This document shows, in pieces, positions 1,722 through 51,420 of a DNA stretch of 64,000 bases. Under the pieces are notes generated by a model, which saw only the letters and a program-made list of their open reading frames with translations, was not told where the DNA came from and made no database searches. The stretch is taken from contig NZ_BCAG01000006.1 of NCBI RefSeq assembly GCF_001293685.1, positions 620,001 to 684,000 of the forward strand, written 5' to 3'. The stretch comes from Desulfatitalea tepidiphila. GTDB lineage: Bacteria > Desulfobacterota > Desulfobacteria > Desulfobacterales > Desulfosarcinaceae. The stretch's first letter is position 1, and every line of letters starts with the position of its first letter. The translations under genes were made by a program, and so were the position numbers.

Positions 1722-3139
1722 TTGACACGATGAAGCCTTATCCCGAATACAAGGAAAGCGGGCTACCGTGGATCGGCAGCATTCCAAAGCACTGGGACAG
1801 TTTGCCCCATCGGGCGATTTTTGAGGAGATCAAGGAACAGGGGCATGTTAATGAACCACTTCTCTCTGTGACGATTGGTAGAGGCATTATCCGTCAAGAA
1901 GACCTCTTGGCGAATTCGTCCAAGAAGGACTCGTCCAATCTCGACAAGTCAAAGTACAAACTCGTTGATCCAGGCGACATCGCCTACAACAAGATGCGCG
2001 CTTGGCAGGGATCGGTGGGCGTATCAAAGTATCGTGGGATTGTTAGCCCAGCCTATATCGTACAACGGTTGCGAGGCGATCTCAAACCAGACTATTTCCA
2101 CTACCTTTTCAGAACACCAGGCTTTGCCAAGGAAGCGGAGCGTTGGTCCTACGGCATCACCTCGGATCAATGGAGCCTGCGCCCGCAGCACTTCAAGATG
2201 ATCTATTCGTGTGTGCCACCGCTCTACGAGCAAGAATTGATAGTTGGATTTCTCCGTAAACTTGACCGGCAAGTCCTACGCTTCATCCGCAATCGGTGGC
2301 GGCTGATTAACTTGCTGAACGAGCAGAAGCAGGCCATCATCAACCGGGCCGTGACCCGCGGCCTCAACGCCGACGCCCCGCTGAAACACTCCAAAGTCGA
2401 CTGGCTCGGTGATATACCCGAATCCTGGACGCTAAAACGATTCAAATATGTTGTGAGTATCCGAAGTGGTCAAGTTGACCCGAAGATCGCTCCCTATCGG
2501 GATTGGGTTCTGATCGCACCGGAACACATAGAAAAACACACGGGTGTTATACGCCTTCGTGAAACTGCTCATGAACAAGGCGCAATCAGTGGAAAATATC
2601 AAGTCGAACCAGGCGAAGTCATTTACAGCAAGATTCGGCCAGCGTTACGCAAGGCTGCTATAGCCGAGGAGAAGTGCCTCTGCAGTGCTGACATGTATCC
2701 TCTTGCTCCACGGCGATCCGAAATTTTGCCAGAATACTTGTTGTTGCTCCTGTTATACGGTCCAGCAACCAGATATCTGATCGATTACTCAATGCGTGTC
2801 GCCATGCCAAAGGTGAACAGGGATGCCTTGGGGAATTGCTGGCTTTGGTATCCCGATGTAGATACCCAGCGCGAGATCATGCAAAGTCTGAAGGACAAGC
2901 TGCTGCCTCTCAACACCTCACTCGACCGCGCCCAACGCGAAATCAACCTCATACGTGAATATCGCACCCGCCTTATTTCCGACGTGGTAACTGGCAAGAT
3001 GGATGTACGTCATGTCTCCCCGCCGCCGGTCCGTGAAGACCTGGAAGAAATGGTCGAATCGCTTGAACCACTGAACGACCAGCCTGACGAGACAGATGAA
3101 GAATCTATGGACGGGGAGGTATTCCATGCCGACGACTGA
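1718..3139 (+). CDS. hsdS: Type I restriction-modification system, specificity subunit S
   Basis: DNA-recognition subunit that sets the bipartite target of the type I enzyme. The 473-residue protein has the usual two half-repeats. Target recognition domain 1 begins near residue 15 (PWIGSIPKHW) and domain 2 near residue 225 (DWLGDIPESW). Each is followed by a conserved helical spacer (around INLLNEQKQAIINRAVTRG and IREYRTRLISDVVTG) that fixes the distance between the half-sites. A GGGAGGG ribosome-binding site lies just before the ATG, which overlaps the hsdM stop. The C-terminal tail is acidic. The recognised sequence cannot be read from the protein. Confidence 0.95.
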   Translation: MIDTMKPYPEYKESGLPWIGSIPKHWDSLPHRAIFEEIKEQGHVNEPLLSVTIGRGIIRQEDLLANSSKKDSSNLDKSKYKLVDPGDIAYNKMRAWQGSVGVSKYRGIVSPAYIVQRLRGDLKPDYFHYLFRTPGFAKEAERWSYGITSDQWSLRPQHFKMIYSCVPPLYEQELIVGFLRKLDRQVLRFIRNRWRLINLLNEQKQAIINRAVTRGLNADAPLKHSKVDWLGDIPESWTLKRFKYVVSIRSGQVDPKIAPYRDWVLIAPEHIEKHTGVIRLRETAHEQGAISGKYQVEPGEVIYSKIRPALRKAAIAEEKCLCSADMYPLAPRRSEILPEYLLLLLLYGPATRYLIDYSMRVAMPKVNRDALGNCWLWYPDVDTQREIMQSLKDKLLPLNTSLDRAQREINLIREYRTRLISDVVTGKMDVRHVSPPPVREDLEEMVESLEPLNDQPDETDEESMDGEVFHADD

Positions 3140-6603: not shown

Positions 6604-8730
6604 TCAAGTCTTCTTGGATGCTGGAGTGCCCGTCTTTTTTTCATCGTATGGGACCTGAAAGACAATGGGTTTTTCGGAACGAACCCATGGGCCGAAGGCC
6701 ACAGCATGCAGCGGCGGAAGGTTAGGTATCAAGGCGACGTGTTCTGGGCCGAATATGTTCCGGAGAAACCCCAAACTTGTATCATCGTAGCAAGTGAAGC
6801 TGATGATTGTGTTGCATTGCGTAAGCACACTCTTACTGACCGTTGCTGTCCTTTGCGCCAGCACCAATAAACCCACTCCATATTTCCTGCCTTGAAGGGC
6901 TATTTGAGCGATCTTACCTACGAGCCCTTTAGAGTCGAAATCGCCCAACCCCATTGTGTTTGCCTCGGGCATTACCGTATGCGCCTCTTCAACAACGATG
7001 AGAATAGGAGGGCACGCTCCGAGATTCTCCCGTGCACACTTTAAAAGGCAAGTCATGTAAAGCTCAGTTATCCAAAGAGTAGCCTTGGTATTGGATATTT
7101 CCTCTAATCGAATCAGACCAAGGTGGGAACTATTGTCTTTAAGGATGAATTTTTTGATCGAAGCAGTGATCTCCTCTCTCAAACTAGTAGCAAACTGGTT
7201 CAGTGCTTTCTTCTCACCTGGAGCTCCGTATGTGCCTGTCTCAACATCAAATAGCTTCTTTGATAGATCCTTGGCGGTATCCTCTTCTACCGACAAATCA
7301 ACGGGGAGTAAGTCTGAGAGCCGCCCTTCATACTGAGCTGTCAGATCGATACATACGACTCGTATTCCGTTTCGAAGAGCGTGGCGAATCATATCGAAGG
7401 CCAGTTCTGTTTTGCCTGATCCTGTAACTCCCAGAAGGGCAGTGTGGACGTTGTAGTGGGAAATGAAGTCGCCACCGACTTTAATACATGATTTTGGGAT
7501 ATCTCCAAGCACAAAATCGCCATCAGCTACAGCTTCAGCCTTCACTTCACACCCTGGGTATGATGTGAAAACTGGAGTATTCATCCCTGGTAGCCAATCA
7601 TACTTCTTGAAGCCTGTTTTTTCGACCAGAGTGCCAAGTTGGGTAGCTGTCGCCACTTGAAAGCCATGCTTGTCAGAGGCAAACGACTCTTCTTGCGTCT
7701 CTCCTTCGATTATTTGATAGTAAACTCGATCCCCATTAACGTTGCACCAAACGAGCATACCATGGTGACAAGATTCCTGCTTAAGAGTTTCAAACTTTAT
7801 AGCTCCAATCGATGATCGTTCAACCACGAATCCGACCAAGATCGCATTTGGGCCGCCACCAAGCGCTTGTGTTATTTCATCTCGATTAGGTTTGGGTATG
7901 TCCTCCTCTGGGCAAAAAACACAATTTTTCAGGTTCTTTGGTACTGGAGCCTTTATGTCCGTTACGAGTCCAGTTGCTAACAATCGTCCATCCTGAAACT
8001 GTGAATAAAGGGGCTGCACCCAATTTGAATCTCCACTTGGGAGAACGCTGATGTAAGGCTGATCTGGACTCCATTTAGTCTCTCCGTTCAGAGCAACTCG
8101 GAGAATATTTGGACTATCAATTCGCGAAATCTCACCGAACGATTTTGACGATGGGCCGCCCGGATCAGTCCATGAGCTGAGCAATTCAGGAACCTTTAAT
8201 GGCCAAATAGCGATAAAGATGCCCCAGAAGATTATTAGGGCAAGAGTTATTGGCTCTTGTATTGAGTAAAAGAACCACAGCCCCGCAATAAACACGACGG
8301 TAAACAATACTCGAGATTTCCCCAGTGTAACGGACGGCCGATAAGTATGTCTGGCGACCCAATCCCTCCACTCCGAAAGTTCGGAACCAGAGCTGACGGC
8401 CACACATGCCAAACTCAGGGAAAAAACCAACAAACAGTAGGCACTGACTATCAGCCAAGGCAGACGAGGCGCTTGGGAGTAAACGGTAAGCAGTGTGATG
8501 AGCCCCATAAGGGAGTTCACAACAGCGTCCGCAGGTTTTGTATAGTGATGTTCCAGAAGTGCTGATCCAAGTACGATTAATAGAAGAGCATTTTGGAACA
8601 TTAGTGCCTGTCTTGGATCCTGGGGAAGAAGGCCCCCTGTGAAGTGCAGAGAGAGAAATAATATTCCAGCGGTCGCTACCAACATGATGGTAATTCGTAC
8701 CCATGGCGCTACTCTTTGGGAATCTGACAT
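6604..8730 (-). CDS. Membrane-anchored HerA/FtsK-type (DUF87) ATPase
   Basis: A 708-residue protein with about six hydrophobic membrane segments in the first 185 residues, a roughly 240-residue soluble middle, and a C-terminal hexameric-translocase ATPase domain. Walker A (GVTGSGKT) is near residue 430. Walker B (ILIVVEEAH) is near 577. The GRKYGVGLLVLAQR stretch typical of HerA lies near 615. The ATG follows GGAGGGAAAAA. It is convergent with the RM operon, with 30 bases between them. HerA-family ATPases pump DNA or power nuclease partners in several defence systems; here no nuclease partner (NurA, SIR2, DUF4297) is adjacent. A DNA-transfer (conjugation-like) or defence role is inferred from position only. 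Confidence 0.85.
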   Translation of the reverse strand: MSDSQRVAPWVRITIMLVATAGILFLSLHFTGGLLPQDPRQALMFQNALLLIVLGSALLEHHYTKPADAVVNSLMGLITLLTVYSQAPRLPWLIVSAYCLLVFSLSLACVAVSSGSELSEWRDWVARHTYRPSVTLGKSRVLFTVVFIAGLWFFYSIQEPITLALIIFWGIFIAIWPLKVPELLSSWTDPGGPSSKSFGEISRIDSPNILRVALNGETKWSPDQPYISVLPSGDSNWVQPLYSQFQDGRLLATGLVTDIKAPVPKNLKNCVFCPEEDIPKPNRDEITQALGGGPNAILVGFVVERSSIGAIKFETLKQESCHHGMLVWCNVNGDRVYYQIIEGETQEESFASDKHGFQVATATQLGTLVEKTGFKKYDWLPGMNTPVFTSYPGCEVKAEAVADGDFVLGDIPKSCIKVGGDFISHYNVHTALLGVTGSGKTELAFDMIRHALRNGIRVVCIDLTAQYEGRLSDLLPVDLSVEEDTAKDLSKKLFDVETGTYGAPGEKKALNQFATSLREEITASIKKFILKDNSSHLGLIRLEEISNTKATLWITELYMTCLLKCARENLGACPPILIVVEEAHTVMPEANTMGLGDFDSKGLVGKIAQIALQGRKYGVGLLVLAQRTATVSKSVLTQCNTIISFTCYDDTSLGFLRNIFGPEHVALIPNLPPLHAVAFGPWVRSEKPIVFQVPYDEKKTGTPASKKT

Positions 8731-17071: not shown

Positions 17072-18004
17072 ATGATCAAAAAATCACACCGAAAAATACT
17101 TGAATCTGATCAACTCGGTCCATCTAAAAAAGAAATAAGTGAACGTTTTGTAAAATCAATTAAATTTGTTAACGAAGTATTTCAGTATCTATTTGAGGCT
17201 CCGGAAGGGCATTACATATGTTATCGATGCAATGCTAAAGGACCAATTAGTTACCCATATTCGAAGAGAAAAAACGAAGGTAGATTTTCAAGTATAAAAA
17301 TCGGCGAAGGTTTCATGTCTTCGTACTGTGGAGTTTGCAACGGCACTGGTTTTGTGGATTTTGTGACAAACGCAAGAAGACCGACCACACAAACTCACTT
17401 GGATTATGGATTCTATATACCAACTACCGCGATTGATCTTGATGATAAGGAAATTGCCTCTACTATTTTTTATAATTTGTATAATGGCCATAACTATAAG
17501 GGCCTTAACTTAAATTTTAAAAAACCAAATTTCGATAGGATTAAAAATAAAAAAATTAAAAAATTTATCGAATATTTCGCAGAATACAAAAAGGCTCGTG
17601 ATAAAAGAAAGAAATTCATTAACAAAAACTTTACTGATTTACAGAACAATTTATTGGAGTCTACTAAATATAGCAATTTTGAAAGAAATCAATATGAATG
17701 TTCCCATTGCAAATCTCAACCATTCGATATTTTACACAATGAAAATTATGACACAATCGATTTGACAATGTGTGGAAAATGTTATGGCAGAGGATACCAA
17801 AATAAGAATGATACACTTCCTATTTTTGACAAATATGTTTTAGAGCTTGAAAATCCCGATTATTCGAACAAAAAGAAAATGCTTAAGAGCATACTGTCCA
17901 ACGCAGATTTATATTATCTTGCCTTGATGGTTAAACTTGATCAAATGAAAAATTCAGAAAAAAAATTGAAAAATAAAACTACCGCAGCCACAGTACCAGC
18001 TTAA
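17072..18004 (+). CDS. Protein with four DnaJ-type CxxCxxxG-like zinc motifs, no J-domain (310 aa)
   Basis: Start at 17072 after ACAGGAGGCAAAA. Two pairs of zinc-binding motifs are visible: CYRCNAKG (about 50-57) with CGVCNGTG (86-93), and CSHCKSQ (210-216) with CGKCYGRG (234-241). This is the spacing logic of the DnaJ Cys-rich domain, in which motifs 1/4 and 2/3 pair around a metal. Here a long lysine-rich linker (residues 145-205) splits the pairs, and there is no HPD J-domain. The gene is very AT-rich and basic. It precedes the candidate origin region, so a role in replication or as a zinc-dependent nucleic-acid or protein binder is possible. I do not recognise the exact family. Confidence 0.75.
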   Translation: MIKKSHRKILESDQLGPSKKEISERFVKSIKFVNEVFQYLFEAPEGHYICYRCNAKGPISYPYSKRKNEGRFSSIKIGEGFMSSYCGVCNGTGFVDFVTNARRPTTQTHLDYGFYIPTTAIDLDDKEIASTIFYNLYNGHNYKGLNLNFKKPNFDRIKNKKIKKFIEYFAEYKKARDKRKKFINKNFTDLQNNLLESTKYSNFERNQYECSHCKSQPFDILHNENYDTIDLTMCGKCYGRGYQNKNDTLPIFDKYVLELENPDYSNKKKMLKSILSNADLYYLALMVKLDQMKNSEKKLKNKTTAATVPA

Positions 18005-18216
18005 AAATTAGAAAATCGAAAAGCGTTGCTTTTCCCAAAGTCGCTGCTGCTTTAAAAACTTTAATCTTGAGACGATGTAAGAAGATAAATAGATATGTGA
18101 CCAATGATTAGCTGCTGATAAACTGTAAATGCCATCTCGGTGAGATTAAAAAATACGAAGTTATTTTAAAAACCTTTTTAATCTAATATTTAGAATAATA
18201 ACAATATAGTAGTTGA

Positions 18217-18335
18217 AAAATTAAAAGATTAACGAAGATCTGAACTTTTATACTATATATATGCTTTTTTATATATTGTATTATTTTTATACTTTTGAGT
18301 ATTTGGGATATAAAGTGAGTTAATCTTTTAATTTT
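18217..18335. repeat. Perfect 17-base inverted repeat, arms 18217-18233 and 18319-18335
   Basis: The arm aaaattaaaagattaac is repeated exactly in reverse complement 85 bases later. The sequence between the arms is nearly pure A and T, with alternating TATATA. It lies inside the larger inverted repeat at 18018-18466. Confidence 0.7.
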
Positions 18336-18367
18336 CGTTGTAAGATGTTGGAATCAGTTTATTTATG

Positions 18368-18388
18368 GGATTAAAAACATTTTAATCC
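18368..18388. repeat. Small perfect hairpin, 9-base arms
   Basis: ggattaaaa and ttttaatcc are separated by three bases (aca). It lies within the AT-rich control region, 33 bases after the second 17-base arm. Confidence 0.55.
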
Positions 18389-18571
18389 GTTTTAATTTTA
18401 TTAATCTAAATCTGCGGGGATTATTATTTTTAGCAGCAAGCACCTTTGGGAAGAGCAACGCTCTTCATTTTTTTACTTTAATTTTCACACATCAAAATTC
18501 TCATCGGCACAAAATCCACTCAAATAAGCGAGAGATCATCCCAAGAATAATAGCTCAGGACAATCCCTCGT

Positions 18572-20896
18572 TTACTGCTGTAAATTCACGATTTCATTGT
18601 CAGGTGCAAATATCCGAAGTTGATTGGCGTGTCTACTCGAATTTGCAATCAGATATCCTTCAGATTCAAGCGCCTTTCGAAAATCAATTTTCGATGTCAT
18701 TCGTTTTATGCCGGCGGATTCACAAAATTTTTGGTAAAGCTTATAGACCTCTTTTAGTGGAGCTGACCTGTCATCCGAGAAAATGATGTCACAATGGGAT
18801 TCGATAAACTCACAAACGCTGTTGTTTTTTTGCTTGTACTGACTTTTCGATTTTCTCATGGAATCACTGACAGCGAATATAAAATCATGATCCCTTAACC
18901 GTCTGTACCCTTCAAGCGCCCAGTTAAATATCCCGGACAGTTCATTCATCAGCTTTCCGGTCAACTCCACATCCATTTCACTTTCGGTAAATTTTTTCGG
19001 AAATTCGATCACATGAATTCTTCTCCACATGCCATAGGTATTGTCTTCGATTTCAGGCAGTGTGTTCATTCCCAAATAGTGCTTGGCATAGGGTTTGAAT
19101 TTCGATGGTTTCTTGTACACCTCCCGGCCTGTCACCCAATCACCAGCGACGACGGACTTGATCAGGTCGGTATTCATGCACCTGGCATTGGGCGTTTCCC
19201 CCGATACGTTGATCATTTTCCCGAATAGTTCTGGCAGATATTTTTCATCGTTCAAACGATTCAAGCTGATGTTAGCCACATTGTCCTTGCCACAGAGGCA
19301 GCTAATTACATCGATGAACACCGATTTTCCATTGCCACCATCACCGATTAAAAAGAATATGACCGCCTTGGGAATGGCCTTATGGAATGCATAACCGACC
19401 GCCTCCTGTACAAATAGGATTGTCGCTTTATCACCCATAAAAATTTCATTCAAGTATTGGAGCCACCTGGGACATTTGGCGCTGGGAGCATAATCATAGG
19501 GCAGTAGGTTGGTCGTAAATATTTCCGGATTATGCGGGACTAACTTGTACCGGGACAGGTCATACAAGCCATTTTGCATGGTCAGGTAACGGACCTGGTC
19601 TTCAAATGCCGTTTCGATATCGATCAGATCATTTCCAATGGCATAGTGGATAAAGTTCGCTTTCGATGCCGGCGTAAACAGCTCACGGTGCTTACCCAAT
19701 TCGGCCTGACAGATATTATTCAACCGGTCATCGCTGCACTGTTCATAGCATTGGCCATTGTATCTGAAAAAAGCCCGCTCTTTTTCAAGGAATTTGAGCA
19801 TATGCTTTTTATACATGAATTCTTGAAAGTTGACGATTTTAAGGGTGTATTTACTCTTGTCGTCTTTTTGCAGGGCACCTGATATGAATAGGGGATCCTG
19901 GCGCTCTTCTTCTGTTAGATGGGAAAACTCCTTGGCCTTTTCAATGCTGTGTTTCAGGTAGGCCTCTGGCGAGGAGTGTTCCCGATATTTGGCGCCGATG
20001 GCATAGTTTTCAAATATGACCTTGATTTGGCCAGCGTCAAAACCCTTATTTACCAAGGCAATGATAACCGCCTGGTCTGCCTCACTCCGGGACGGGTATG
20101 ATCCATCCTTACCATGCAGGATCAGGTTTTTGATTTTATCCGATACCGGAAGTGAGGATATGTTTTTATCCCAATCCGAAGAGGGTGAATCATAGACGGT
20201 GGCCTGTGGTATCGCATTATCTTTGGGTTTGGGCTGAAAATCCATAAATGATTCGAACGCTTTCAGATCATAGGTCGGCCCCGAGTCATCAATTATAATT
20301 ACAGGACGGGGATTGCCAGGGATCTTGAAGTTAAATGTCCCAGGAACGCGCAATATGCGGTTAATATTGTGCGTCCCACCATCAGCATGGATTTTACTTA
20401 AAATCGCCCTGTTGACGTTCTTAAGGTCATTTAGGCCTATTTTTAAAACCTCTGCCGGAAAGTCCAATATCCAATAGCAATGAAATCCGCCACCGCTGTG
20501 AATGACAAGTGACGCTGGTATTTCAAATGCCTTTATTGCAGTGAGCGCTTCATCATACGTATCGTATTCCGGCTTCTTTTTATGGCCATCATGTCCATAG
20601 TCGATCTCAGCATGAAAGGACGACAGGTAGTGTACATTTTCCTCTTTGCCTGCCTTTCCAACCCGTGGATTAACTCCAAAATAGACATCAAGACCTTGCT
20701 GGCATGCTCGATATGCTGCATCGACGGCGTCAGGTATTGTGTTGTGGTAGGATTGATATTTTGGTCCGTTGTAAAACCCGTCAATTTGGATTTCACCGCA
20801 GTCGTTCTGCATAGATGCTTCAAACAATCTGCTTAAAAAATGTGTTGCCGTGTTATTGAATTGCTCTTTGTCTGTGATCATGTTTTGAGGATTCAT
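18572..20896 (-). CDS. Primase-polymerase / SF3 (D5, P4-type) helicase
   Basis: A 774-residue replication protein. The N-terminal part (about 1-230) is an archaeo-eukaryotic-type primase of the RepB'/prim-pol group: HAEIDYG near residue 95-101 supplies the metal-binding acids, SGGGFHCYW near 137 the sxH motif, and RILRVPGTFN near 187 the nucleotide-binding part. The C-terminal half is a D5-type superfamily 3 helicase with Walker A (GDGGNGKS) near 516 and the typical MNTLPEIEDNTYGMWRR motif C near 630. Such proteins melt an origin, prime and unwind DNA for phages, plasmids and satellites. The ATG at 20896 shares its A with the stop of the RHH gene. Confidence 0.9.
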   Translation of the reverse strand: MNPQNMITDKEQFNNTATHFLSRLFEASMQNDCGEIQIDGFYNGPKYQSYHNTIPDAVDAAYRACQQGLDVYFGVNPRVGKAGKEENVHYLSSFHAEIDYGHDGHKKKPEYDTYDEALTAIKAFEIPASLVIHSGGGFHCYWILDFPAEVLKIGLNDLKNVNRAILSKIHADGGTHNINRILRVPGTFNFKIPGNPRPVIIIDDSGPTYDLKAFESFMDFQPKPKDNAIPQATVYDSPSSDWDKNISSLPVSDKIKNLILHGKDGSYPSRSEADQAVIIALVNKGFDAGQIKVIFENYAIGAKYREHSSPEAYLKHSIEKAKEFSHLTEEERQDPLFISGALQKDDKSKYTLKIVNFQEFMYKKHMLKFLEKERAFFRYNGQCYEQCSDDRLNNICQAELGKHRELFTPASKANFIHYAIGNDLIDIETAFEDQVRYLTMQNGLYDLSRYKLVPHNPEIFTTNLLPYDYAPSAKCPRWLQYLNEIFMGDKATILFVQEAVGYAFHKAIPKAVIFFLIGDGGNGKSVFIDVISCLCGKDNVANISLNRLNDEKYLPELFGKMINVSGETPNARCMNTDLIKSVVAGDWVTGREVYKKPSKFKPYAKHYLGMNTLPEIEDNTYGMWRRIHVIEFPKKFTESEMDVELTGKLMNELSGIFNWALEGYRRLRDHDFIFAVSDSMRKSKSQYKQKNNSVCEFIESHCDIIFSDDRSAPLKEVYKLYQKFCESAGIKRMTSKIDFRKALESEGYLIANSSRHANQLRIFAPDNEIVNLQQ

Positions 20897-21063
20897 TACA
20901 TTTCATCCTCCTCTCGATTGATATTGTTCAGCGCCGATGCCACTGCATCTCTGACCCATTCGGCCATACTGGTCTGTTGCTCGTCTGTAATCCGTTTAAT
21001 CAGATCGAAGTGTTCCTGTGGCAGCGCCACGCTGAGGGATTTTGAAAATTGGCGTGTTCTCAT
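20896..21063 (-). CDS. Ribbon-helix-helix (CopG-like) regulator (55 aa), coupled to the primase
   Basis: The ATG at 21063 follows AGGAGGAAACATC; the frame is open upstream without a better start. The product (MRTRQFSKSLSVALPQEHFD and on) has a short N-terminal strand, a helix LIKRITDEQ and a second helix EWVRDAVASALNN, an RHH fold with similarity to plasmid CopG copy-number repressors. The stop overlaps the primase-helicase start by one base (TAATG). RHH-primase coupling suggests that it represses the replication operon and so limits copy number or excision; this is inferred. Confidence 0.8.
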   Translation of the reverse strand: MRTRQFSKSLSVALPQEHFDLIKRITDEQQTSMAEWVRDAVASALNNINREEDEM

Positions 21064-21230
21064 GATGTTTCCTCCTGTAAATGAAATGAACAGCAATGAT
21101 AATTGCTTTTGTATTGATTTGTTACCGCGAATGAAGCATGAAGTATTCAGTTGCAAACTCGTCCGTGCAAAAAAATGGGGCAACCCCCTGTTGGAGATCG
21201 CCCCGCCATTATTTTTCTTTAATTTTCTGC

Positions 21231-22025
21231 TTAAATATCCAACCCGTTTTGCTTGGGAATTGGAATACCCACGATCTTTTTAATCTCTTTTTTCCACCGG
21301 ATCATCGGGTTGTCCTTGTGGCGCCGATAAATTGCCTTGATGATGGTTTCGGTTTGCCCCTGACGCACGTTATCGATGGCCTGTAGCATAACAGGGTCTG
21401 CATGCTTCTCTAAGCGGACCAGGTGGTTCATCGTACCGATCCATATCGAATGGGTCACATATGGCAACAAATCGCTTACAAGCGCGTCTATGTTGGCAGA
21501 ATCGAGCATGGGCTCGACACTTACCGATGTTTGAAATCCGGCCTGGCAGGCGTAGATTAAACACTGCTTGCGCTCATCATAGCTTGGGGCATTCGGCTCC
21601 CAAAATGAAAGAATGCGATTATCGCGGGCGCCGATGGAAAAGCGAAATAGGATCTGATCTCTGTAGGAGCGAAGAAAAACGCACAGTTGCTCAATGCAGT
21701 TGAAATGAGGTTTGGATACGATCAAGATCTGATTGCCCGCTTGAACAAGCCGCCAAATGACGTTTTCACAAGCATCCAAGTTACTATCGGTAATATCATG
21801 TGTAGATGGGAACATGACCTGGCCAGGATATTTCTTATGAGACTTGTACACGTCCTTTTCCCGCACTCGTTCAAGCGGCCATTGTCCCACCGTCAGTTGT
21901 TTTCGACGAACGGCCATCTCTTTGGCATAACAATACAGACAATCATGGGAACAACCGGTGCAGCAATTTACAGTCTTTACTGACCACTCTTGCGTACCTT
22001 CACATTTTATCGATTTTTTAATCAT
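21231..22025 (-). CDS. Radical SAM protein, SplB-like/phage Gp37-like (264 aa)
   Basis: Start at 22025 after AAAGGA. The CxxxCxxC cluster is at residues 25-32 (CSHDCLYC), followed by YAKEMAVRR. The opening (GTQEWSVKTVNCCTGC) resembles small radical SAM proteins carried by phages and mobile elements. The middle has SKPHF and an IGARDN, then VSVEPMLD strand typical of the barrel. The substrate is unknown. It sits between the primase operon and the 505-aa gene, with a terminator upstream, so it has its own promoter in 22026-22054 or is read through. It pairs in style with the longer radical SAM gene at 12321-13415. Confidence 0.8.
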   Translation of the reverse strand: MIKKSIKCEGTQEWSVKTVNCCTGCSHDCLYCYAKEMAVRRKQLTVGQWPLERVREKDVYKSHKKYPGQVMFPSTHDITDSNLDACENVIWRLVQAGNQILIVSKPHFNCIEQLCVFLRSYRDQILFRFSIGARDNRILSFWEPNAPSYDERKQCLIYACQAGFQTSVSVEPMLDSANIDALVSDLLPYVTHSIWIGTMNHLVRLEKHADPVMLQAIDNVRQGQTETIIKAIYRRHKDNPMIRWKKEIKKIVGIPIPKQNGLDI

Positions 22026-22054
22026 TTTTTTTTCCTTTCAAAGTAAAATTAAAA

Positions 22055-22084
22055 GAGCCAATCCCCTTAAACGAAGATTGGCTC
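22055..22084 (-). terminator. Rho-independent terminator after the 505-aa gene
   Basis: On the minus strand, GAGCCAATC and GATTGGCTC form a perfect nine-base stem with a twelve-base loop, followed by TTTTAATTTT. It lies 81 bases past the stop of the gene at 22166-23683 and 30 bases before the start of the radical SAM gene. Confidence 0.75.
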
Positions 22085-22165
22085 CTTAGCTCTGCCATCA
22101 TGGCAAGGTTTCAAGTTTTAAAAATTTATCCGCTCAAGCTGCCGAATTTTTAAAAGTTTAAATTT

Positions 22166-23683
22166 TTAAATCTTCTCGACTTGAGCGGATAACGGATTGA
22201 CCACCAACACCTCTTTACCCTCATAGATCGGATCCTGGATCGTTTCAGGAGCCGGCAACCCAATTGCATTTTCAAGCGTTGGCGTCGTGATATAGTAGCC
22301 GTAATAGCGGCTCTTGGGGGGCTTGGCACGCTCCAGCATACCCATCGTCACAAGAGCCATAAGATCGTTGCTCATGCTCGATAACGAAAATTGGGCATCG
22401 GATCTGCCTATCTTTTCGAATATCTTTTCTCGTGTGGCCCAATATCCAGAACCTTGTGCGATCGTGGACAGTTTTTCGACATCATCGTCTTTGGTCAACA
22501 AGGCGGTGCTGAGTTTGGCCATATTCAAGGTTTTGACCGCATCGAAAACCATCTTCTGACGGTCAGAAAAACGTGTCGACCCGACCAGTAGCATGCCATC
22601 TAGCAGCAAACGGCTGATGTGATATTCGACTTTTGTGGCAACAAGCGGCCCGTTGGACACCGGTTCCGTACCTTTTGCAATACCTGCATTTATTAGCCAG
22701 TAACGCACCTCATCTTCATCCGTACCGAACATTAAAGCCCCAAGCTCCGCCATCTCGACCGTGGGGGGATTACCGATGATGGCACAGATAGAAATCAGGT
22801 GTTTCAGAATCGTCAATTTTTCAACAGCATGATCACAACCACTTTCAATAAAAGCGGTTTCCAATTGCTGTTCGTAAGGAATAACCACCGGCTGTGGCTT
22901 CAACCTCTGAAAAGATTTTCGAAACTTAAATAGGGGCGAATGAATCAAGCCGTATCGCTCATATAGGTCAGGCATGCTTTGGGAAATTGCTCCCTGATTC
23001 CCAACGACAGGAATTTTCAAAACTGAAGGAAGGCTAAGCTCTTTACCAGGCGTGCCGCCGGTAATACCGAGCACTGACACACGCATCTCGGATCGATGCT
23101 CGGACAGGTCAACCTTGTATTTTCCTTTTGTTACCTCTTGCTGGACACTATATCCGCGGGTGAGAATCAGTTCCAAATCTCGAGATACCTTGCTAAAGCC
23201 ATTTACTGTTGGACTAAGGATGCATTTGCCATCAAGTAGTCTCCCATGATCTATATATAGGTGTTCCTGTTTGAATTCCGGAAACTCGATGACCGCATCT
23301 TTCGGAACGATTCTTAAGCATTGATCCAGTAGTTGGACTGCTTCTTGAGCGTTATCGGGTTCGAGCATTGCAGAGATGGGGTGACCTAATCGGGCAGACA
23401 ACATGCACATTGAAATGAGATTCGCTGCCTGAATATTTTCAGGGGTGATCCCAATGGACTGCAGGTGGCCCGATGCCCTATATTGGATCGGTTGAAGAGC
23501 ACCATCGGGCCGTATAATTGGCCATTCGATGAACTGATGGATCGGATCGGAATGCCCCGCGAACACTGTCGGAAGGATATTCTTATCCGGTATAACGCCT
23601 GTGTTGGTTGCAGGCATATCAATTATAATGTCTTCATTCTGTACTTCATGACCCTTTGGGTCAACTTTTTGTGATTGTTTCAT
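22166..23683 (-). CDS. Hypothetical island protein (505 aa) with possible C-terminal winged helix
   Basis: I start it at 23683 (MKQSQKVDPKG) after AAAGGAA. The protein is soluble. Residues 50-130 include helices NIQAANLISMCMLSARLG and EAVQLLDQCLRI. The middle (about 205-235) has SVLGITGGTPGKEL, a glycine-rich turn that is not a standard P-loop (no GKS/T). The C-terminal 150 residues (YHISRLLLDGMLLVG, DAVKTLNMAKLSTALLTKDD, REKIFEKIGRSDAQFSLSSM) look like winged-helix DNA-binding elements. I do not recognise the family. Neighbours are replication genes, so a replication accessory or primase-partner role is possible. Confidence 0.7.
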   Translation of the reverse strand: MKQSQKVDPKGHEVQNEDIIIDMPATNTGVIPDKNILPTVFAGHSDPIHQFIEWPIIRPDGALQPIQYRASGHLQSIGITPENIQAANLISMCMLSARLGHPISAMLEPDNAQEAVQLLDQCLRIVPKDAVIEFPEFKQEHLYIDHGRLLDGKCILSPTVNGFSKVSRDLELILTRGYSVQQEVTKGKYKVDLSEHRSEMRVSVLGITGGTPGKELSLPSVLKIPVVGNQGAISQSMPDLYERYGLIHSPLFKFRKSFQRLKPQPVVIPYEQQLETAFIESGCDHAVEKLTILKHLISICAIIGNPPTVEMAELGALMFGTDEDEVRYWLINAGIAKGTEPVSNGPLVATKVEYHISRLLLDGMLLVGSTRFSDRQKMVFDAVKTLNMAKLSTALLTKDDDVEKLSTIAQGSGYWATREKIFEKIGRSDAQFSLSSMSNDLMALVTMGMLERAKPPKSRYYGYYITTPTLENAIGLPAPETIQDPIYEGKEVLVVNPLSAQVEKI

Positions 23684-23720
23684 GATTGAAATTCCTTTCG
23701 CAAAAAAATGTAAACAAAAA

Positions 23721-23745
23721 GGCCGACCCGGAAATCGGATCGGCC
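23721..23745 (-). terminator. Terminator-like hairpin just upstream of the 505-aa gene (possible attenuator)
   Basis: On the minus strand, GGCCGATCCG and CGGGTCGGCC pair (one G-U) around a short loop, followed by TTTTTGTTTAC. It sits only 38 bases before the ATG of the 505-aa gene, leaving no room for a normal promoter after it. It either ends transcripts from the gene at 24040-25344 or acts as an attenuator for the gene below. Confidence 0.6.
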
Positions 23746-24039
23746 CATAAACAAACAACTACATGCGGCTTGCCTTTATACCCTCATATGCATCACCTCC
23801 ATTGCACCAAAAAATGCTTTTAAACGATTTATTCGTTTATGTAATTTTGTTGATACAATGCAGGATAGTTGTCGAAAACCATCTACCATTCTGTAATTAT
23901 ATTATAATTCGTATTTTTTTAGGGAGGGCATACAAGAATATTCGGTCACACTGTGATATCAAGTTCATTTCTTGTACGAGGATATTTTCGGTGGAAATGA
24001 AAAATGGGATTCAGCTGGAGTTTCACGATTTGAATGGTG
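23746..24039. other. AT-rich intergenic region
   Basis: About 290 bases between the 434-aa gene (ending at 24040) and the hairpin before the 505-aa gene, both on the minus strand. It probably holds the promoter of the 505-aa gene. A plus-strand frame of about 100 codons (23763-24077) lacks a ribosome-binding site and overlaps the end of the 434-aa gene, so I do not call it. Confidence 0.4.
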
Positions 24040-25344: not shown

Positions 25345-25695
25345 ATGTCCTCCTTTCATGTATAAGCTTGAAGACGCCATTTTCCTAAATCCTGCGGGCA
25401 AGCAACAGCACCATCCAAATCTTCTATAAATCAGCCACTGTCTATAGCAGCTTACTCTTTTTTGCGACGATTGTCAGTGCCGATGACGGCAATTTTTACA
25501 TAACAACCCAATATCACATTACATTTTTTACAATTTTTCGAAATCCTGCAAACACCAAACATAATCATACAAATACAAGACTCGGAAAATTGTGTCCAAT
25601 GATCTCAATCGATGATGCCTGTGGGACTGCTGACTCTGCTGACTCTGCTGACACACTCTCCAAGCATGCGAAATCAAAACGAAAGGATTTATAAA
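25345..25695. other. Divergent intergenic control region
   Basis: About 350 bases between the divergent 434-aa gene and the 619-aa ATPase gene, so it must hold promoters for both. The part from 25490 to 25590 is AT-rich. A 9-base tandem repeat lies at 25627-25652 just upstream of the ATPase start. I see no RNA gene. Confidence 0.45.
25627..25652 (+). repeat. Tandem repeat, 9-base unit CTGCTGACT, 2.9 copies
   Basis: Three consecutive units, the last lacking its final T. It lies 44 bases before the ATG of the ATPase gene, in the probable 5' leader. It could be an operator with repeated half-sites or a simple slippage tract. Confidence 0.7.
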
Positions 25696-27555
25696 ATGGA
25701 AGAAAATTTGGTTGAACTTATCAAAGGGTATGAAGTCACAGAAAGTTGTAATAGAAGCTCCATCCCGAACTCAACCGGGGCTGATGATACAAGGCCGGTC
25801 GAGGCACCAGCTGCAAAGGGTGCGGATACAGTCGAGACGGAAATTGAAGAACAATCCAGGGATTTGATTTATGAAATCCGAGACGGCCACCTATTTAAAG
25901 TGACAGGGGGCAAGGACACTCGGGTTGCCAATTTTTACCTGACAATTGCCGCACAGTATATCCGAATGGATGAGGGCACTGTCACAGGCCGGGATTTTAA
26001 AATCGAAGTGCATTTAAGGGACGAAATTATCGAGTTGATGATTCCTGTAGAGGAATTTTGCGGCAACCGATTGGCAAATCAAATCATTGCACAGGCCGGA
26101 TCAAGGGCTATCATCTATGGCAATCAAAATGATTTGAGAATTGCTGCCCAGGAGATGTCCACACCACCAACGAAGACCATCACTTCAAGCATGGGTTTTG
26201 ACAATCATGGAATGTATTTAGCGCCCGGCATGGTGATCTCAAAAGCCGGTATTGATCAATTACCAGAGATCGACGTTGACTTGAGTGAGGGCAATTTTTC
26301 CCGTCACATTGGTTTTTTGTCACCTAACCAGGATCGGATCAAGGATTTGGTCGACCATATTCTGGCTGATTTTATGCAGCTCAAGTATCACCAGGTCGTC
26401 TATCCGCTGATCGGTCATATCGTTGCGGCTGCCTTTGCATCACAGATTAGTGAAATTGGCAGACAAAAGCCCGTGATGCATCTTCAAGGAACTTCAGGTT
26501 GTGGCAAGACCTTTCTTGGCAACCTTGCCGCATCCTTTTATTGTGCCTTCAACGATAGGCCCATCCCTTGGACCTCCACTGCGAATTCGATTGAATATGA
26601 GGGGTATTTTTTCCGTGACGCGCTGTTTTTTATCGACGATTTGAAAACATCGATAATTGATCCGAAAAAGGTCATCCGAATCATTCAGAACAGTGCCAAC
26701 TCTCAGGGACGCAGCCGTCTGACTGCCGGTGGCGGTCTCAAGTTGACGCCCATGCGAGGCGTAAGAGGCCTGATCCTGTCAACAGGCGAGGATTTCATAA
26801 ACGATGTCGAATCGGTCTCCGGTCGCACCCTACTTATTCATGTGGAGCCGGACCAGAATCAGCAATCTGGTAACAAGTGCTGGGCTCGCCGGGATGAATA
26901 CAGCATGTTAATGCCCGCCTTGTTGCAGTGGCTTTTGGCTCAGGATGATTGGACTGAGCAATTTGAGAATTGCGTAAATGAAGAGACGGCAAGAATTAGC
27001 GCCACCATAGCCGATTTTTCCAACGGATTTCGCGTAGCCAGCAACTGGGCCTTAAATGCCTGGGGCTTTATGCTATTTGTTAGATACGCTGAGCATTTAC
27101 AGGTTGTCAATGAGGGCCGCGCAGATGCAATCATTCGTGAATACAGACAGATAGTCGAAAACCATATCGCCGCACATGCAAATCGCATAAGGATTCAAAG
27201 TCCGGTCGAGGTTTTTTATCAGATTCTCAGCCAGAGATTTGCCACCGGTTCCATCATGGTACAAGGGTTATCGGATCAAAACAGCGGTCGCCTGATTGGC
27301 AAGGTCCGTGAAAACCAAATTATTTGTCTGTTTCCTGATCCAACCTTCGAAGTCCTGCAACGGCACTTTCGGGCTTCTGGTAGAAAAATGTCCTTTAGCA
27401 AAGAAACATTAAGGGACGCCTTGGACAGGGAAAACCTCATAATAAGGTCAGGCCCAGGCCGCATCACCCATCAAGTCAGAATGGGTGCCAGCCGGCTGCA
27501 GGCATGGCAGTTCGATATCAATGAATTTAAAGCACGCTGCGGTATGATGGATTAA
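25696..27555 (+). CDS. DUF927-like P-loop ATPase/helicase (619 aa)
   Basis: Start at 25696 (MEENLVELIK) after GAAAGGATTTATAAA; an upstream in-frame ATG at 25612 would add a repeat-encoded leader and is unlikely. The N-terminal 180 residues are of unknown fold. The ATPase core has Walker A (GTSGCGKT) near residue 265, a probable Walker B (ALFFIDDLK) near 309, and a sensor-like LILSTGED near 355. The arrangement matches DUF927-type putative helicases found next to primases in phages and plasmids. The C-terminal 100 residues are probably a winged helix. Its partner could be the primase-helicase at 18572-20896, though that protein already has a helicase domain. Confidence 0.8.
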   Translation: MEENLVELIKGYEVTESCNRSSIPNSTGADDTRPVEAPAAKGADTVETEIEEQSRDLIYEIRDGHLFKVTGGKDTRVANFYLTIAAQYIRMDEGTVTGRDFKIEVHLRDEIIELMIPVEEFCGNRLANQIIAQAGSRAIIYGNQNDLRIAAQEMSTPPTKTITSSMGFDNHGMYLAPGMVISKAGIDQLPEIDVDLSEGNFSRHIGFLSPNQDRIKDLVDHILADFMQLKYHQVVYPLIGHIVAAAFASQISEIGRQKPVMHLQGTSGCGKTFLGNLAASFYCAFNDRPIPWTSTANSIEYEGYFFRDALFFIDDLKTSIIDPKKVIRIIQNSANSQGRSRLTAGGGLKLTPMRGVRGLILSTGEDFINDVESVSGRTLLIHVEPDQNQQSGNKCWARRDEYSMLMPALLQWLLAQDDWTEQFENCVNEETARISATIADFSNGFRVASNWALNAWGFMLFVRYAEHLQVVNEGRADAIIREYRQIVENHIAAHANRIRIQSPVEVFYQILSQRFATGSIMVQGLSDQNSGRLIGKVRENQIICLFPDPTFEVLQRHFRASGRKMSFSKETLRDALDRENLIIRSGPGRITHQVRMGASRLQAWQFDINEFKARCGMMD

Positions 27556-27745: not shown

Positions 27746-28069
27746 ATGGATCAAATCAAGAGTCAACTCGGCCAGGTCCTCGGCGTCAAGCAGATCGCCG
27801 AATACACAGGGCTTGACCAGAAAACCATTAGAAAATACTATCATCAATTAGGCGGGATACGCGTGGGATCGCGTATCGTGTTCTTTGAAAAGGAGTTTAT
27901 CAATGCCATACAAACGCAATCACAAGTGGTATGCCCAGGTGCGCAAAGAGGGCCAGAAATGCGAACGGGTCTTCCTGACGAAGAAGGAGGCCGTGGATTG
28001 GGAAGTGGAGATGCGGAAAAAGCCCGTAAGCGAGTGGTCAGGCAGGACCGACACGGTCTGTTTGAATGA
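27746..28069 (+). CDS. Excisionase-like HTH protein (107 aa)
   Basis: Start at 27746 (MDQIKSQLGQ). Residues 10-55 (LGVKQIAEYTGLDQKTIRKYY then RVGSRIVFFEKEFINAI) are a MerR/AlpA-like helix-turn-helix with a small wing, as in excisionases and helix_turn_helix_17 proteins. The last 50 residues overlap the integrase gene in another frame (167 bases) and look like read-through sequence with low complexity (Gly, Arg, Glu). The functional part is probably only the first 55 or so residues. It would bias the integrase toward excision. Confidence 0.7.
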   Translation: MDQIKSQLGQVLGVKQIAEYTGLDQKTIRKYYHQLGGIRVGSRIVFFEKEFINAIQTQSQVVCPGAQRGPEMRTGLPDEEGGRGLGSGDAEKARKRVVRQDRHGLFE

Positions 28070-29009
28070 TTGGGCGCAAAAATATCTCGATTTTTCCCGA
28101 CCCAGCTTCTCTCACAACACGTATGTCGAAAAACGCTCGTTATTCAAGCGCTTGTTCAAGATCTTAGATCCTGACATGCCGGTGTCAAAGCTAAAACCAG
28201 CCCTGCTGATGGAATATATTGTTGAACAGAAGGAGCAGCGGTCTGGGAATGCTTCAAACCGGGACCGGAAGAACCTGGTGGCGGCATGGAACTGGGGTAT
28301 GAAATACATGGACCCTCCCCTTCCCGGCCCCAATCCCTGCCTGGTGGAGCGAATGCCTGAGATACGGCAGCCGAGATACGTCCCCCCGGATGAGGACTTC
28401 TGGAAGGTGTATGCGTTAGCAGAAGGCCAGGACAAGGTCATGTTGTTGGCTTTTTTGCACCTGGCGGCCCGTCGAAGTGAAATCTTCCGGCTCACATGGG
28501 AGGATATCGACTTTGCAAACAACCGCGTAAGAATATGGACCAGAAAGAGGCATGGGGGCACTTACGAGTATGACTGGCTACCCATGACCAAAGAGCTTCG
28601 CAAATCGATGCGGTGGTGGTGGGAAAACAGGCCCATCAAGGACAAGCCCCATGTGTTTTTATGCCTGGATAAGACCGAATTTTGTAGAGACTATCTGGGC
28701 GAGCCCTTTCGTTACCGGATCCATTTCATGCGGCGCCTATGTGAACGAGCCGGAGTCAAGGTCTTTGGATTCCACGCTATAAGGCATTTTTCTGCATCCC
28801 TGTTGTTCAAGTTGGGATACGAGGTCGCTGTCATTCAGACGATACTCCGGCACAAAAGCCCCAACACAACCGAGCGCTACTTAAGAAGCATCGGTCTGGA
28901 AAGGGTCCGGGAGGCGTTGGAAGATTTGAAACCGTCACCCGCTCGGGTCATAAAATTGGAGGAAAGGCCAAAAAAGGCCCGGGCAGCAGGAAAGAAAAAA
29001 GCCGTCTGA
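27903..29009 (+). CDS. Tyrosine recombinase / site-specific integrase
   Basis: Start at 27903 (MPYKRNHKWY) after AAAAGGAG. At 368 residues it is a normal phage/island integrase. An N-terminal arm-binding strand region (residues 5-35) precedes a SAM-like core-binding domain (50-140) and the catalytic domain. Catalytic residues are visible: Arg190 (AARRSEI), His291-x-x-Arg294 (FHAIRHF), His317 (LRHKS) and the nucleophile Tyr326 (ERYLRS). The C-terminus is Lys-rich. It lies 55 bases from the 3' end of tRNA-Glu, the expected place for an integrase beside its attachment site. It catalyses integration and, with the HTH protein, excision of the island. Confidence 0.95.
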   Translation: MPYKRNHKWYAQVRKEGQKCERVFLTKKEAVDWEVEMRKKPVSEWSGRTDTVCLNDWAQKYLDFSRPSFSHNTYVEKRSLFKRLFKILDPDMPVSKLKPALLMEYIVEQKEQRSGNASNRDRKNLVAAWNWGMKYMDPPLPGPNPCLVERMPEIRQPRYVPPDEDFWKVYALAEGQDKVMLLAFLHLAARRSEIFRLTWEDIDFANNRVRIWTRKRHGGTYEYDWLPMTKELRKSMRWWWENRPIKDKPHVFLCLDKTEFCRDYLGEPFRYRIHFMRRLCERAGVKVFGFHAIRHFSASLLFKLGYEVAVIQTILRHKSPNTTERYLRSIGLERVREALEDLKPSPARVIKLEERPKKARAAGKKKAV

Positions 29010-29064
29010 GGAGCCGTCAACTCCTCAAGCGGCAGAGGCAAGGTTTGTAACCTATTGATTTTTT

Positions 29065-29139
29065 GGTGATCCCAAGGGGATTCGAACCCCTGTTACTGGC
29101 GTGAGAGGCCAGTGTCCTAACCGCTAGACGATGGGACCA
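29065..29139 (-). tRNA. tRNA-Glu (anticodon CTC), probable attachment site of the island
   Basis: On the minus strand the sequence folds into a complete cloverleaf: acceptor GGTCCCA/TGGGATC, D-arm with TAGCGGTTAGGAC, anticodon stem CTGGC/GCCAG with loop CTCTCAC (anticodon CTC, reading GAG), and T-arm with GGTTCGAATCC. CCA is encoded (29065-29067). Its 3' end faces the integrase gene, as expected when an element inserts into the 3' part of a tRNA gene and restores it. No second copy of the tRNA 3' end was noticed to the left in this window, so the other junction probably lies beyond base 1. Confidence 0.97.
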
Positions 29140-46735: not shown

Positions 46736-46924
46736 GGGGCCAGCATACCAGAAGCGGTTGCGTTTGGCCAGGTGGGCGCTTTTGCCCCAGCGATTCTAAC
46801 TGAATGCCATTCCTTGAACCCGGCCCGGGTGGGACAGGTCGCCGATGCCACGCGAATTTTTTATTAGACTACGCTTGGAAAAACACACCCTTCAGGGTGA
46901 ATCACATTCAGTTGGACCTGCTGC

Positions 46925-49295: not shown

Positions 49296-49334
49296 GCGAT
49301 ATATATCGGTCCGCTTTGCGGTGCACTTTAGATT

Positions 49335-49370
49335 TGTGCCGATCCATTAATGGCCAATTTGCCCGATATC
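49335..49370 (+). mobile_element. Fragment of the MITE-like element (left end only)
   Basis: About 36 bases, ending aatggccaatttgcccgatatc, match the left end of copy A at 40417-40556 (same orientation). The rest of the element is absent. It lies 40 bases upstream of the histidine-kinase start. Confidence 0.55.
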
Positions 49371-49384
49371 GACGCGGATGCCGT

Positions 49385-49480
49385 GGGCGGGCAAAAAGCC
49401 CGCCCCTACGAGATTGGAGCTGTATTACAGGCAGTTGCCATAACCCTGCAACTTAGGGGCGGGGTTTAGTCCCGCCCGTA
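49385..49480. repeat. Pair of inverted GC-rich palindromic intergenic repeats
   Basis: Unit 1 (49385-49410) has arms GGGCGGGC and GCCCGCCC around AAAAA, then ctacg. Unit 2 (49453-49480) is a diverged copy on the other strand with arms GGGCGGG and CCCGCCC. Such units are scattered in many Desulfobacterota genomes. They could also serve as terminators or attenuators. Confidence 0.65.
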
Positions 49481-49581
49481 TGAAAATCTGAACATCTTAA
49501 GTAAACGGAATTGGCTTTTCAGGGTCATGCGACCGGCGGCGCTTTTGAAACGCGGCGCCCGCAACCGGGTGGGGACCGTTG

Positions 49582-51277: not shown

Positions 51278-51331
51278 TTGCATATCGGACATCCTCAAAA
51301 ACCCACTCAACAGCTCCTTTTAGACCTATAG

Positions 51332-51366: not shown

Positions 51367-51420
51367 AATCGCCCTTTAGAGACTTGACAATCTGGTAAAA
51401 AGTCCGAAATTCGCGTTTCC

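Follow-up and report, generated by a model that had tools for sequence, protein, structure and literature searches.

In the window, i.e. the whole stretch of 64,000 nucleotides from Desulfatitalea tepidiphila that was analysed, a large primase-helicase gene and a small upstream gene overlap, and a gene-free gap lies directly downstream of them (Table 1). The large protein matches the P4-family profile TIGR01613 at 233 bits (cut-off 109) as well as D5_N and DUF5906, which puts its helicase in the SF3 class of P4/D5 type. The SaPI5 primase-helicase 7ola, its best solved relative, also comes first when the model of the protein is compared with solved structures. In a single pairwise comparison it is 25% identical to ORF904 of pRN1 (E 6e-32). 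For a prim-pol domain in the N-terminal part speak a PHROG DNA-primase match at residues 47-287 (E 5e-10) and the motifs HSGGGFHCYW and RVPGTFN, which we take to resemble those of prim-pol proteins; the domain had no match in Pfam and no meaningful one in the PDB, and pLDDT is below 60 across most of the N-terminus. At the other end, residues 690-744 match Pox_D5, and residues 708-769 give weak profile matches (E 0.008 and 0.09) to RFX chains, which are presumably winged-helix proteins. The stop codon of the small gene overlaps the primase start codon in the sequence TAATG (20894-20898); this overlap and the P4-family match support the coupling of an SF3 helicase gene to a ribbon-helix-helix (RHH) gene that had been proposed in a preliminary description of this DNA. 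The small protein has no match in Pfam; it is 28% identical to ORF56 of pRN1 over 43 residues (E 3e-6 in a single pairwise comparison, E 0.75 in a PDB search), a fold search ranks 3ft7 first, yet at E 1.7, and residues 3-13, which should be a strand in an RHH protein, are helical in the monomer model.

Table 1. Features of the locus and of the island that carries it (positions in the window unless a contig is named).
Feature	Position	Strand	Remarks
ORF upstream of the gap	17033/17072..18004	+	convergent with the primase gene
Nested inverted-repeat region, proposed replication origin	18018..18466		449 bases, two nested stems
Left local palindrome	18018..18034		GAAAAGCGTTGCTTTTC
Right local palindrome	18450..18466		GAAGAGCAACGCTCTTC; then T run on + strand, terminator-like for + transcripts
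Outer stem P1, left arm	18026..18051		24 pairs with right arm
Outer stem P1, right arm	18432..18458
Inner stem P2, left arm	18216..18233		18 pairs with right arm
Inner stem P2, right arm	18319..18336
Centre between inner arms	18234..18318		80% A+T; putative melting site
TTAATCY repeats (n=8)	18061..18407	+ and -	+ at 18061, 18178, 18320, 18382, 18401; - at 18143, 18226, 18368
17-pair hairpin	18529..18570	-	directly 3' of primase stop; terminator-like; tail CTTATTTGAG T-poor
P4-family primase/SF3 helicase	18572..20896	-	774 aa; proposed initiator
Protein read as RHH	20896..21063	-	55 aa; overlaps primase start
Shared block	18018..22649		96.5% identical to C3:604673-600040, second island, same genome
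Radical-SAM-like protein	21231..22025	-	in shared block; below Pfam cut-off
530-aa protein	22166..23758	-	62% overall identity to C3 counterpart; family not assigned
Tyrosine integrase of island	27885..29009	+
att repeat, right end	29061..29111		51 bp, in tRNA-Glu; identical left-end copy at C6:598148, outside the window

The gap (18005-18571) measures 567 bases, is composed of 71% A+T, lies between convergent genes and holds no ORF of at least 80 codons, just as had been described. Its long-range inverted-repeat score is far above that of shuffled sequences (z = 9.1, reached by 0 of 100 shuffles; z = 7.3 and 0 of 40 in a second run of the scan). When the gaps of the window were scanned with a pass mark of z >= 4 and 0 of 40 shuffles, five of 16 passed, with the target at the top (7.3) and the other four between 4.0 and 5.3. 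The perfect 17-base inverted repeat (18217-18233/18319-18335) and the repeated TTAATCT noted earlier both hold up: the longest such repeat in 60 dinucleotide shuffles was 14 bases, and TTAATCT occurs six times on the two strands (0.42 expected; 0 of 2000 shuffles reach six), the degenerate form TTAATCY eight times (0.60 expected; 0 of 2000 reach eight). The claim of 33-base inverted repeats with compensatory base changes has to be divided. An outer inverted repeat does exist, with arms of 41 nucleotides (18005-18045/18439-18479) and 80% complementarity; the changes, AAAAGC/GCTTTT against AAGAGC/GCTCTT, belong to two local palindromes that closely resemble one another; with one mismatch allowed, the genome contains no others like them. 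Within each palindrome the G/A difference is compensated, but the long-range stem is left with an A-C mismatch and a G-T wobble. Taken alone, it is thus evidence for two local dyads, and the argument that it reflects selection for the long stem has to be given up.

The gap and the RHH-primase genes belong to a 50.9-kb integrative element at tRNA-Glu that has a 51-bp att repeat at either end. A search for att sites as 13-mers found none inside the window, as the left end falls beyond it. The region and the two genes recur as one block in a second island at tRNA-Asn, and on its left side this block begins exactly with the outer repeat, or left palindrome (18018). The two copies of the region differ at 20 positions, none of them between 18193 and 18346.

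A third, diverged copy (L060:3343-3776) was found on a metagenome contig whose primase is 69% identical. In the outer stem, all 24 chosen pairs are kept, 11 of them with changes on both sides; in the inner stem 17 of 18 are kept, with one G-C pair replaced by A-T through changes on both sides. Together, two-sided changes affect 12 of 42 pairs, as compared to 4.0 by shuffling and 0-3 if the partners are slid. A consensus fold has z-scores of -11.9 on one strand and -10.2 on the other, with none of 200 column shuffles as good, and 25 of its 105 pairs are absent from at least one sequence. The eight outermost stem pairs, which mostly belong to the palindromes, fall on gaps or do not pair in this copy, and TTAATCY occurs five times (0.52 expected; 0 of 1000 shuffles), i.e. 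less often than in the window. Since only three copies are known and two of them share a genome, the covariation amounts in effect to one comparison. Conserved hairpins in a homologous element had been named beforehand as a check, and the absence of conserved structure in homologues as one half of a refutation; with the main part of the stem kept through compensated changes, this half is answered. By eye, a comparable hairpin is seen 3' of the L060 primase. The ends of the contig do not overlap; its gene order would suit a circle that lacks part of the primase gene.

Searches for further relatives at the DNA level returned the own genome as the only match among 97 relatives, and 12 matching genomes out of 389, the other 11 with short matches only (30-52 nt, E 1e-5 to 1e-3). 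One phage record (36 nt, E 0.05) and one plasmid record (50 nt, E 0.04) were hit; the L060 piece had no match among plasmids, a pattern search for the region in viral sequences was negative, and protein scans gave no confirmed relative. Among 395 genomes of the phylum, no primase was found at E <= 1e-60 except in the own genome. For the upstream ORF (17072-18004), 96 other genomes yielded a single relative (G028, 32% identity), and the 20 kb around that relative contain no match to the region (best E 0.26). It counts against an origin that in L061, where the primase is 48-51% identical, the region is absent. The coverage of this contig (cov_1207) might have pointed to many copies of a replicon; this was discarded, as the contig also carries ORFs read as chromosomal; those beside the element appear MutL-like and MiaA-like by eye.

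A survey of gaps next to related primases, using an inverted-repeat scan that retrieves the published pRN1 stem-loop, placed the locus in a wider context. Of 37 gaps immediately downstream of related primases, 15 had long-range repeats and 22 failed the scan; such repeats were present in 7 of 124 gaps that follow other genes (Fisher 1e-6) and in 12 of 201 other gaps (2e-7). On the 5' side of the primase, 5 of 39 gaps have such repeats. The centre is more A+T-rich than the arms in 13 of the 15 primase-side repeats and in 6 of 19 controls. The same genome has three further loci with D5-type helicases, and their seven gaps all stay below the pass mark (z up to 3.9).

The closest known arrangement is found in pRN1, a plasmid of Sulfolobus, where experiments have defined this layout as a minimal replicon that needs the stem-loop in order to replicate (PMC4234260, PMC3869888). 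Plasmid and element have in common an ORF56-family copy-control gene that overlaps a P4-family primase-helicase gene, a terminator hairpin after the stop codon and then a large stem-loop with a loop richer in A+T; as among the pRN1 relatives, its structure is better conserved than its sequence. There are also differences: the element is bacterial, integrated and 50.9 kb in size, its stem-loop spans 449 bases in two nested stems rather than about 100, and its N-terminal prim-pol domain is a candidate. It also carries TTAATCY repeats, whereas the pRN1 origin is described as being without iteron structure (PMC4234260). In PICI/SaPI elements such as SaPI5, the origin lies directly 3' of the initiator gene, as is proposed here, and the repeats around an A+T-rich part (PMC6092414, PMC7581432); TTAATCY on both sides of the 80% A+T centre is a candidate counterpart. 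In contrast to those elements, the repeats here lie partly inside long-range complementary stems, and both the gene order and the coupling to an RHH gene are different; among the proteins scanned, no phage-helper, capsid, packaging or alpA/stl-type switch genes were recognised. The P4 alpha protein belongs to the same TIGR01613 family as the primase, and is described as having a bacterial-type (Toprim) primase domain and as binding to repeats, the large stem-loop setting pRN1 apart (PMC4234260). For Cch2 of SCCmec, binding is reported to need direct rather than inverted repeats, which counts against a stem-based origin.

Could the stems be RNA helices? A structured noncoding RNA of about 450 nucleotides on the primase strand, e.g. 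one that acts in replication control or regulation, would account for the better fold of this strand (z -8.0 versus -4.2; for the inner part -3.8/-4.9 versus -1.7/-1.9) and for the 20 differences between the window and C3 copies, which keep the primase-strand fold to a degree that 2 of 300 random sets attain, as compared to 20 of 300 on the other strand. Moreover, the hairpin 18529-18570 contains five G-U pairs on the primase strand only, and a strand preference in folding and substitution tests is not predicted from DNA alone. Run in the other direction, from C3 to the window and on the core alone, the test gives a weaker signal, however (11 of 300 versus 54 of 300), the L060 strands fold about alike (z -6.5 and -5.9) with similar consensus z-scores on both, Rfam gives no match at gathering thresholds and no large-RNA family covering the region up to E 10, and promoter-like sites number one versus 3.7 expected by chance. 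Because L060 is strand-neutral and a terminator-like hairpin separates primase and region, we demoted such an RNA from first choice to rival, and consider it unlikely.

The palindromes raise a different question, namely whether a double terminator with a spacer between convergent genes sits at a block edge, the long stem being a by-product of two similar palindromes. Three terminator-like sites in 801 bases (0.3 expected), the near-identity of palindromes unique in the genome and the loss of their ends in L060 would fit. Yet pairing between the outer arms reaches well past the palindromes, the 11 two-sided changes in L060 keep the stem while the arm sequences differ, the C3 copy has no T run after its left palindrome, and such a reading leaves inner stem and TTAATCY repeats unexplained; we regard it as quite improbable. 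Transfer origins are commonly repeat-rich and adjoin RHH accessory proteins, and the sharp block edge at the outer palindrome in two islands might suggest an oriT, or a recombination site of some other kind, at which the RHH protein would serve as a relaxosome accessory factor. This is very improbable: the RHH gene overlaps a primase-helicase gene, and no relaxase turned up among those island proteins that were scanned, which come from part of the ORFs inside the window, to the right of the island's left part at C6:598148-620000.

Thus, the reading as origin plus initiator, already put forward in the preliminary description, is supported by the P4-family primase, the block in two islands, the compensated changes in L060, the pRN1 layout and the enrichment of repeats 3' of primases. 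A pRN1-like rep/ori module, of a layout that has its precedent in an archaeal plasmid, is most likely the best description of the locus: by sequence and analogy, the nested region is probably the replication origin of the island, and the RHH-primase operon its initiator and copy-control pair in the manner of pRN1. In such a scheme, the integrase would excise the island first, the helicase would assemble on the stem-loop and the TTAATCY repeats, probably via its C-terminal part, and melt the A+T-rich centre; the N-terminal domain would then prime, and the host polymerase would complete replication. The RHH protein would repress its own operon and so set the copy number, and the hairpin 3' of the primase gene may end the primase mRNA ahead of the origin.

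More generally, and as a tentative idea that may well prove wrong, origins of P4/D5-family primase-helicase replicons might be recognised by shape, i.e. by a long-range stem (a cruciform or single-stranded DNA hairpin) directly 3' of the initiator gene whose letters are replaceable if pairing is kept, and modules of RHH gene, primase gene and stem might pass among plasmids, phages and large cargo-carrying chromosomal islands of bacteria and archaea. If the reading of the locus as origin plus initiator is right, a 2014 proposal for pRN1 and one phage group would be extended to a measurable rule (15 of 37 versus 7 of 124 gaps), providing a sequence-based route to proposing origins in a large class of mobile elements. 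For D. tepidiphila, a seemingly static cargo island of 50 kb would then contain a replicon in the style of pRN1 that could copy it once excised, and this copying would affect both gene dosage and the spread of the island.

The gap at 18005-18571 is 71% A+T and lies between convergent genes, the + ORF and the - primase-helicase gene, and the repeats that the preliminary description had seen in it are real: the outer arms are 80% complementary, the long-range inverted-repeat score of the region has a z of 9.1 (reached in 0/100 shuffles), the inner repeat is perfect over 17 bases as compared to a longest repeat of 14 in 60 shuffles, and the motif TTAATCY, of which TTAATCT is one form, occurs eight times as compared to 0.60 expected (0/2000 shuffles). 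The RHH-type and primase genes, proposed to be coupled, overlap as TAATG. In a second scan of the window (40 shuffles per gap), z >= 4 was reached in 5 of its 16 gaps of at least 150 bases, with the region at the top (7.3). The four others (z 4.0-5.3) are located at 46736-46924, 49332-49581, 51293-51559 and 59870-60041.

Coordinates of the repeats and genes around the putative origin
Feature	Position	Strand	Remark
+ ORF left of the gap	17033/17072-18004	+	one flank of the gap 18005-18571
Outer arms	18005-18045 / 18439-18479		
Main outer stem	18026-18051 / 18432-18458		
Inner stem	18216-18233 / 18319-18336		
Primase-helicase gene, 774 aa	18572-20896	-	other flank of the gap 18005-18571
Ribbon-helix-helix (RHH) type gene, 55 aa	20896-21063	-	overlaps the primase-helicase gene as TAATG

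The region lies in an att-bounded island. The tRNA-Glu end is repeated exactly, over 51 bp, at 29061-29111 and at C6:598148, on the contig that holds the window, and a tyrosine integrase adjoins the tRNA; from the positions of this repeat, the island spans about 50.9 kb, mostly to the left of the region. Its cargo includes Type I restriction-modification genes and a HerA-like ATPase (75-6116 and 6604-8730), and a DUF927 helicase-like protein is encoded near the integrase (25612-27555), on the same island as the P4-family primase. The sequences on either side of attL repeat each other in inverted orientation (569-1372 / 1702-2509 of locus L048, C6 near 598 kb; 84% identity over 812 bases). A second island lies at tRNA-Asn on contig C3, with 58-bp att repeats spaced 61.6 kb apart and one more att copy 10.6 kb further on; it also encodes a D5-type helicase of 499 aa (C3:597347-598846). 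The two further att copies, C3:654195 and C3:664818 (10.6 kb apart), lack a tRNA gene and suggest a tandem second element behind the 61.6-kb island. Both islands have one block in common, 18018-22649 and C3:604673-600040, with 96.5% identity, as well as 159 bp preceding the integrase. The window and 40 kb of C3, which cover part of each island, gave no other alignment except one 25-base match. The left block edge is the first base of a palindrome, and similarity is absent beyond it; the right edge lies inside the ORF 22166-23758, which goes on as a protein 62% identical overall to its C3 counterpart. Since the common block spans both and begins on the palindrome, the noncoding region belongs with the RHH-primase genes. 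The + ORF on the other flank has a single relative among 96 other genomes searched (G028, 32% identity), and the 20 kb surrounding this relative contain nothing that matches the region. This ORF (17072-18004) is AT-rich; its 310-aa product contains four CxxC pairs and matches neither Pfam nor NCBIfam.

Both ends of the outer arms are local palindromes, GAAAAGCGTTGCTTTTC and GAAGAGCAACGCTCTTC. The differences between the arms, which had been taken as a sign of selection for structure, are compensated within each palindrome, and in the long stem they give one A-C mismatch and one wobble. The argument for a putative selected stem stems instead from a third copy, L060, a metagenome contig of 4317 bases labelled as a Thermoplasmata MAG, which was found by scanning genome contigs with a primase alignment and encodes a primase with 69% identity. 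It carries, in this order, the primase C-terminus, a hairpin, an RsgA-like GTPase gene (Pfam RsgA_GTPase), a near copy of the hairpin, the homologous region, a 54-aa gene, and a TAATG-started frame at the contig end. The 54-aa product looks RHH-like (22% identity to the window protein). This order would fit a circle that lacks part of the primase gene; the contig ends do not overlap. The GTPase gene is cargo flanked by near-copies of the post-primase hairpin, identified by eye at 1649-1690 and 3281-3326, as if it had been inserted at or together with the terminator.

The L060 region aligns with that of the window over 271 bases (68%, E 1e-30). Pairs were counted on a MAFFT alignment built from sequence only, with the two helices taken from a 105-pair consensus fold. 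L060 keeps the main outer stem (24/24 pairs, 11 with two-sided and 2 with one-sided changes) and the inner stem (17/18 pairs, one G-C to A-T), but not the eight outermost pairs, mostly within the palindromes, which are gapped or unpaired there; 25 of the 105 consensus pairs are missing in at least one sequence. Both helices together have 12 two-sided pairs as compared to 4.0 +/- 1.6 after redealing of the 3' letters (0/500), a covariation that in effect rests on one comparison since the three sequences include two near-identical ones, and to 0-3 with slid partners, a control biased because the helices were themselves chosen from a fold of that alignment. L060 also has an excess of TTAATCY (5 versus 0.52 expected, 0/1000). 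Since the inner stem of L060 has lost the motif on both sides and still pairs, pairing seems to outweigh the motif there.

The consensus energy has a z of -11.9 on the primase strand and of -10.2 on the other (0/200 column shuffles for each). A rival reading is a structured RNA from the primase strand. The window sequence folds better on this strand than on the other as compared to its own shuffles (z -8.0 and -4.2), as does the core (-8.1/-9.5 and -6.3/-5.4). Moreover, the 20 differences that separate the two copies in the genome keep the primase-strand energy to an extent seen in 2/300 random substitution sets (20/300 for the other strand), and in the reverse direction, for the core only, in 11/300 (54/300). 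These results favour an RNA. However, the L060 region shows no strand preference (z -6.5 and -5.9), no Rfam family fits the region, and what first follows the primase stop is a terminator-like hairpin of 17 pairs, five of them G-U on the primase strand, although few T lie behind it. We therefore regard an RNA as improbable and a DNA element of replication as the better reading.

The putative initiator is a P4-family primase (TIGR01613, 233 bits with a cut-off of 109) that also matches D5_N and DUF5906. Its closest solved chain by profile, 7ola (E 5e-44), entitled primase-helicase in SaPI5, is also the top structural match of its AlphaFold model (E 1e-21). As this model (mean pLDDT 69.9) is confident in the helicase only, with the N-terminus mostly below 60, a putative prim-pol domain is assigned there on the basis of a PHROG hit and of motifs that we take to be prim-pol-like. 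By itself, the model of the RHH protein is of low significance and has a helix in place of the expected strand; its first fold match is nevertheless 3ft7 (E 1.7), named ORF56 in the PDB search.

Gaps near related primases were surveyed in 160 loci (the best 80 of 369 and the best 80 of 573 relatives), of which 127 were left after removal of near-duplicates, L060, and loci without a recognisable primase frame. The first 700 bases of all noncoding gaps of at least 150 bases, with ORFs of at least 80 aa masked, were scanned for ungapped inverted repeats in which at least 40 bases separate the arms (100 shuffles; pass at z >= 4 and 0/100). Directly 3' of the primase, 15/37 gaps passed, as compared to 7/124 located 3' of another ORF of at least 150 aa (Fisher 1e-6) and 12/201 other gaps (Fisher 2e-7); directly 5' it was 5/39. 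A first version (136 loci with L060, 60 shuffles) gave 16/42 (3'), 7/41 (5') and 22/409 elsewhere. In the remaining 90 loci of the 127, the mask left no gap of at least 150 bases that starts at the primase stop, and in 5/127 the primase ends at the contig end. The pRN1 arms 5084-5104 / 5163-5183, used as a positive control, were recovered by the scan and match the published limits 5084-5183. A+T is higher in the centres than in the arms in 13/15 passing 3' repeats as compared to 6/19 control repeats. Among three loci read, the arms consist of short repeats in L213 and L073, both directly 3', and lack them in L118, which is not directly 3'. The threshold was not reached in 22/37 gaps 3' of related primases, the region is absent from L061 (primase 48-51% identical), and 0/7 gaps passed at the three other D5-type helicase loci of the genome. 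Such an inverted repeat 3' of the primase is thus present in some, not all relatives.

The closest parallel is pRN1: according to PMC4234260 and PMC3869888, its minimal replicon consists of orf56, orf904 and, 3' of the latter, a stem-loop of 100 bp that is required, whereas a terminator hairpin between orf904 and the stem-loop is dispensable. PMC4234260 also proposes such a stem-loop as the assembly site of initiators that combine prim-pol, SF3 and winged-helix parts, and reports one for phage BIP-1. In the pRN1 sequence, orf56 and orf904 overlap just as the window genes do, and single pairwise comparisons relate the window primase to ORF904 (E 6e-32) and the RHH protein to ORF56 (E 3e-6). Other published systems conflict with a role of the stem in recognition: in SCCmec Cch2, binding required the direct repeats and not the inverted ones, and in E. 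coli PICIs, an A+T-rich part 3' of pri-rep is flanked by two iteron sets (PMC6092414). The stem may therefore serve melting rather than recognition. The best-ranked literature matches included no open-access PMC text on this island family. The proposed mechanism is of a known rep/ori kind; new are the size (449 bases, comprising repeats and two nested stems), the integration into a bacterial genome, and a module common to two islands of one genome.
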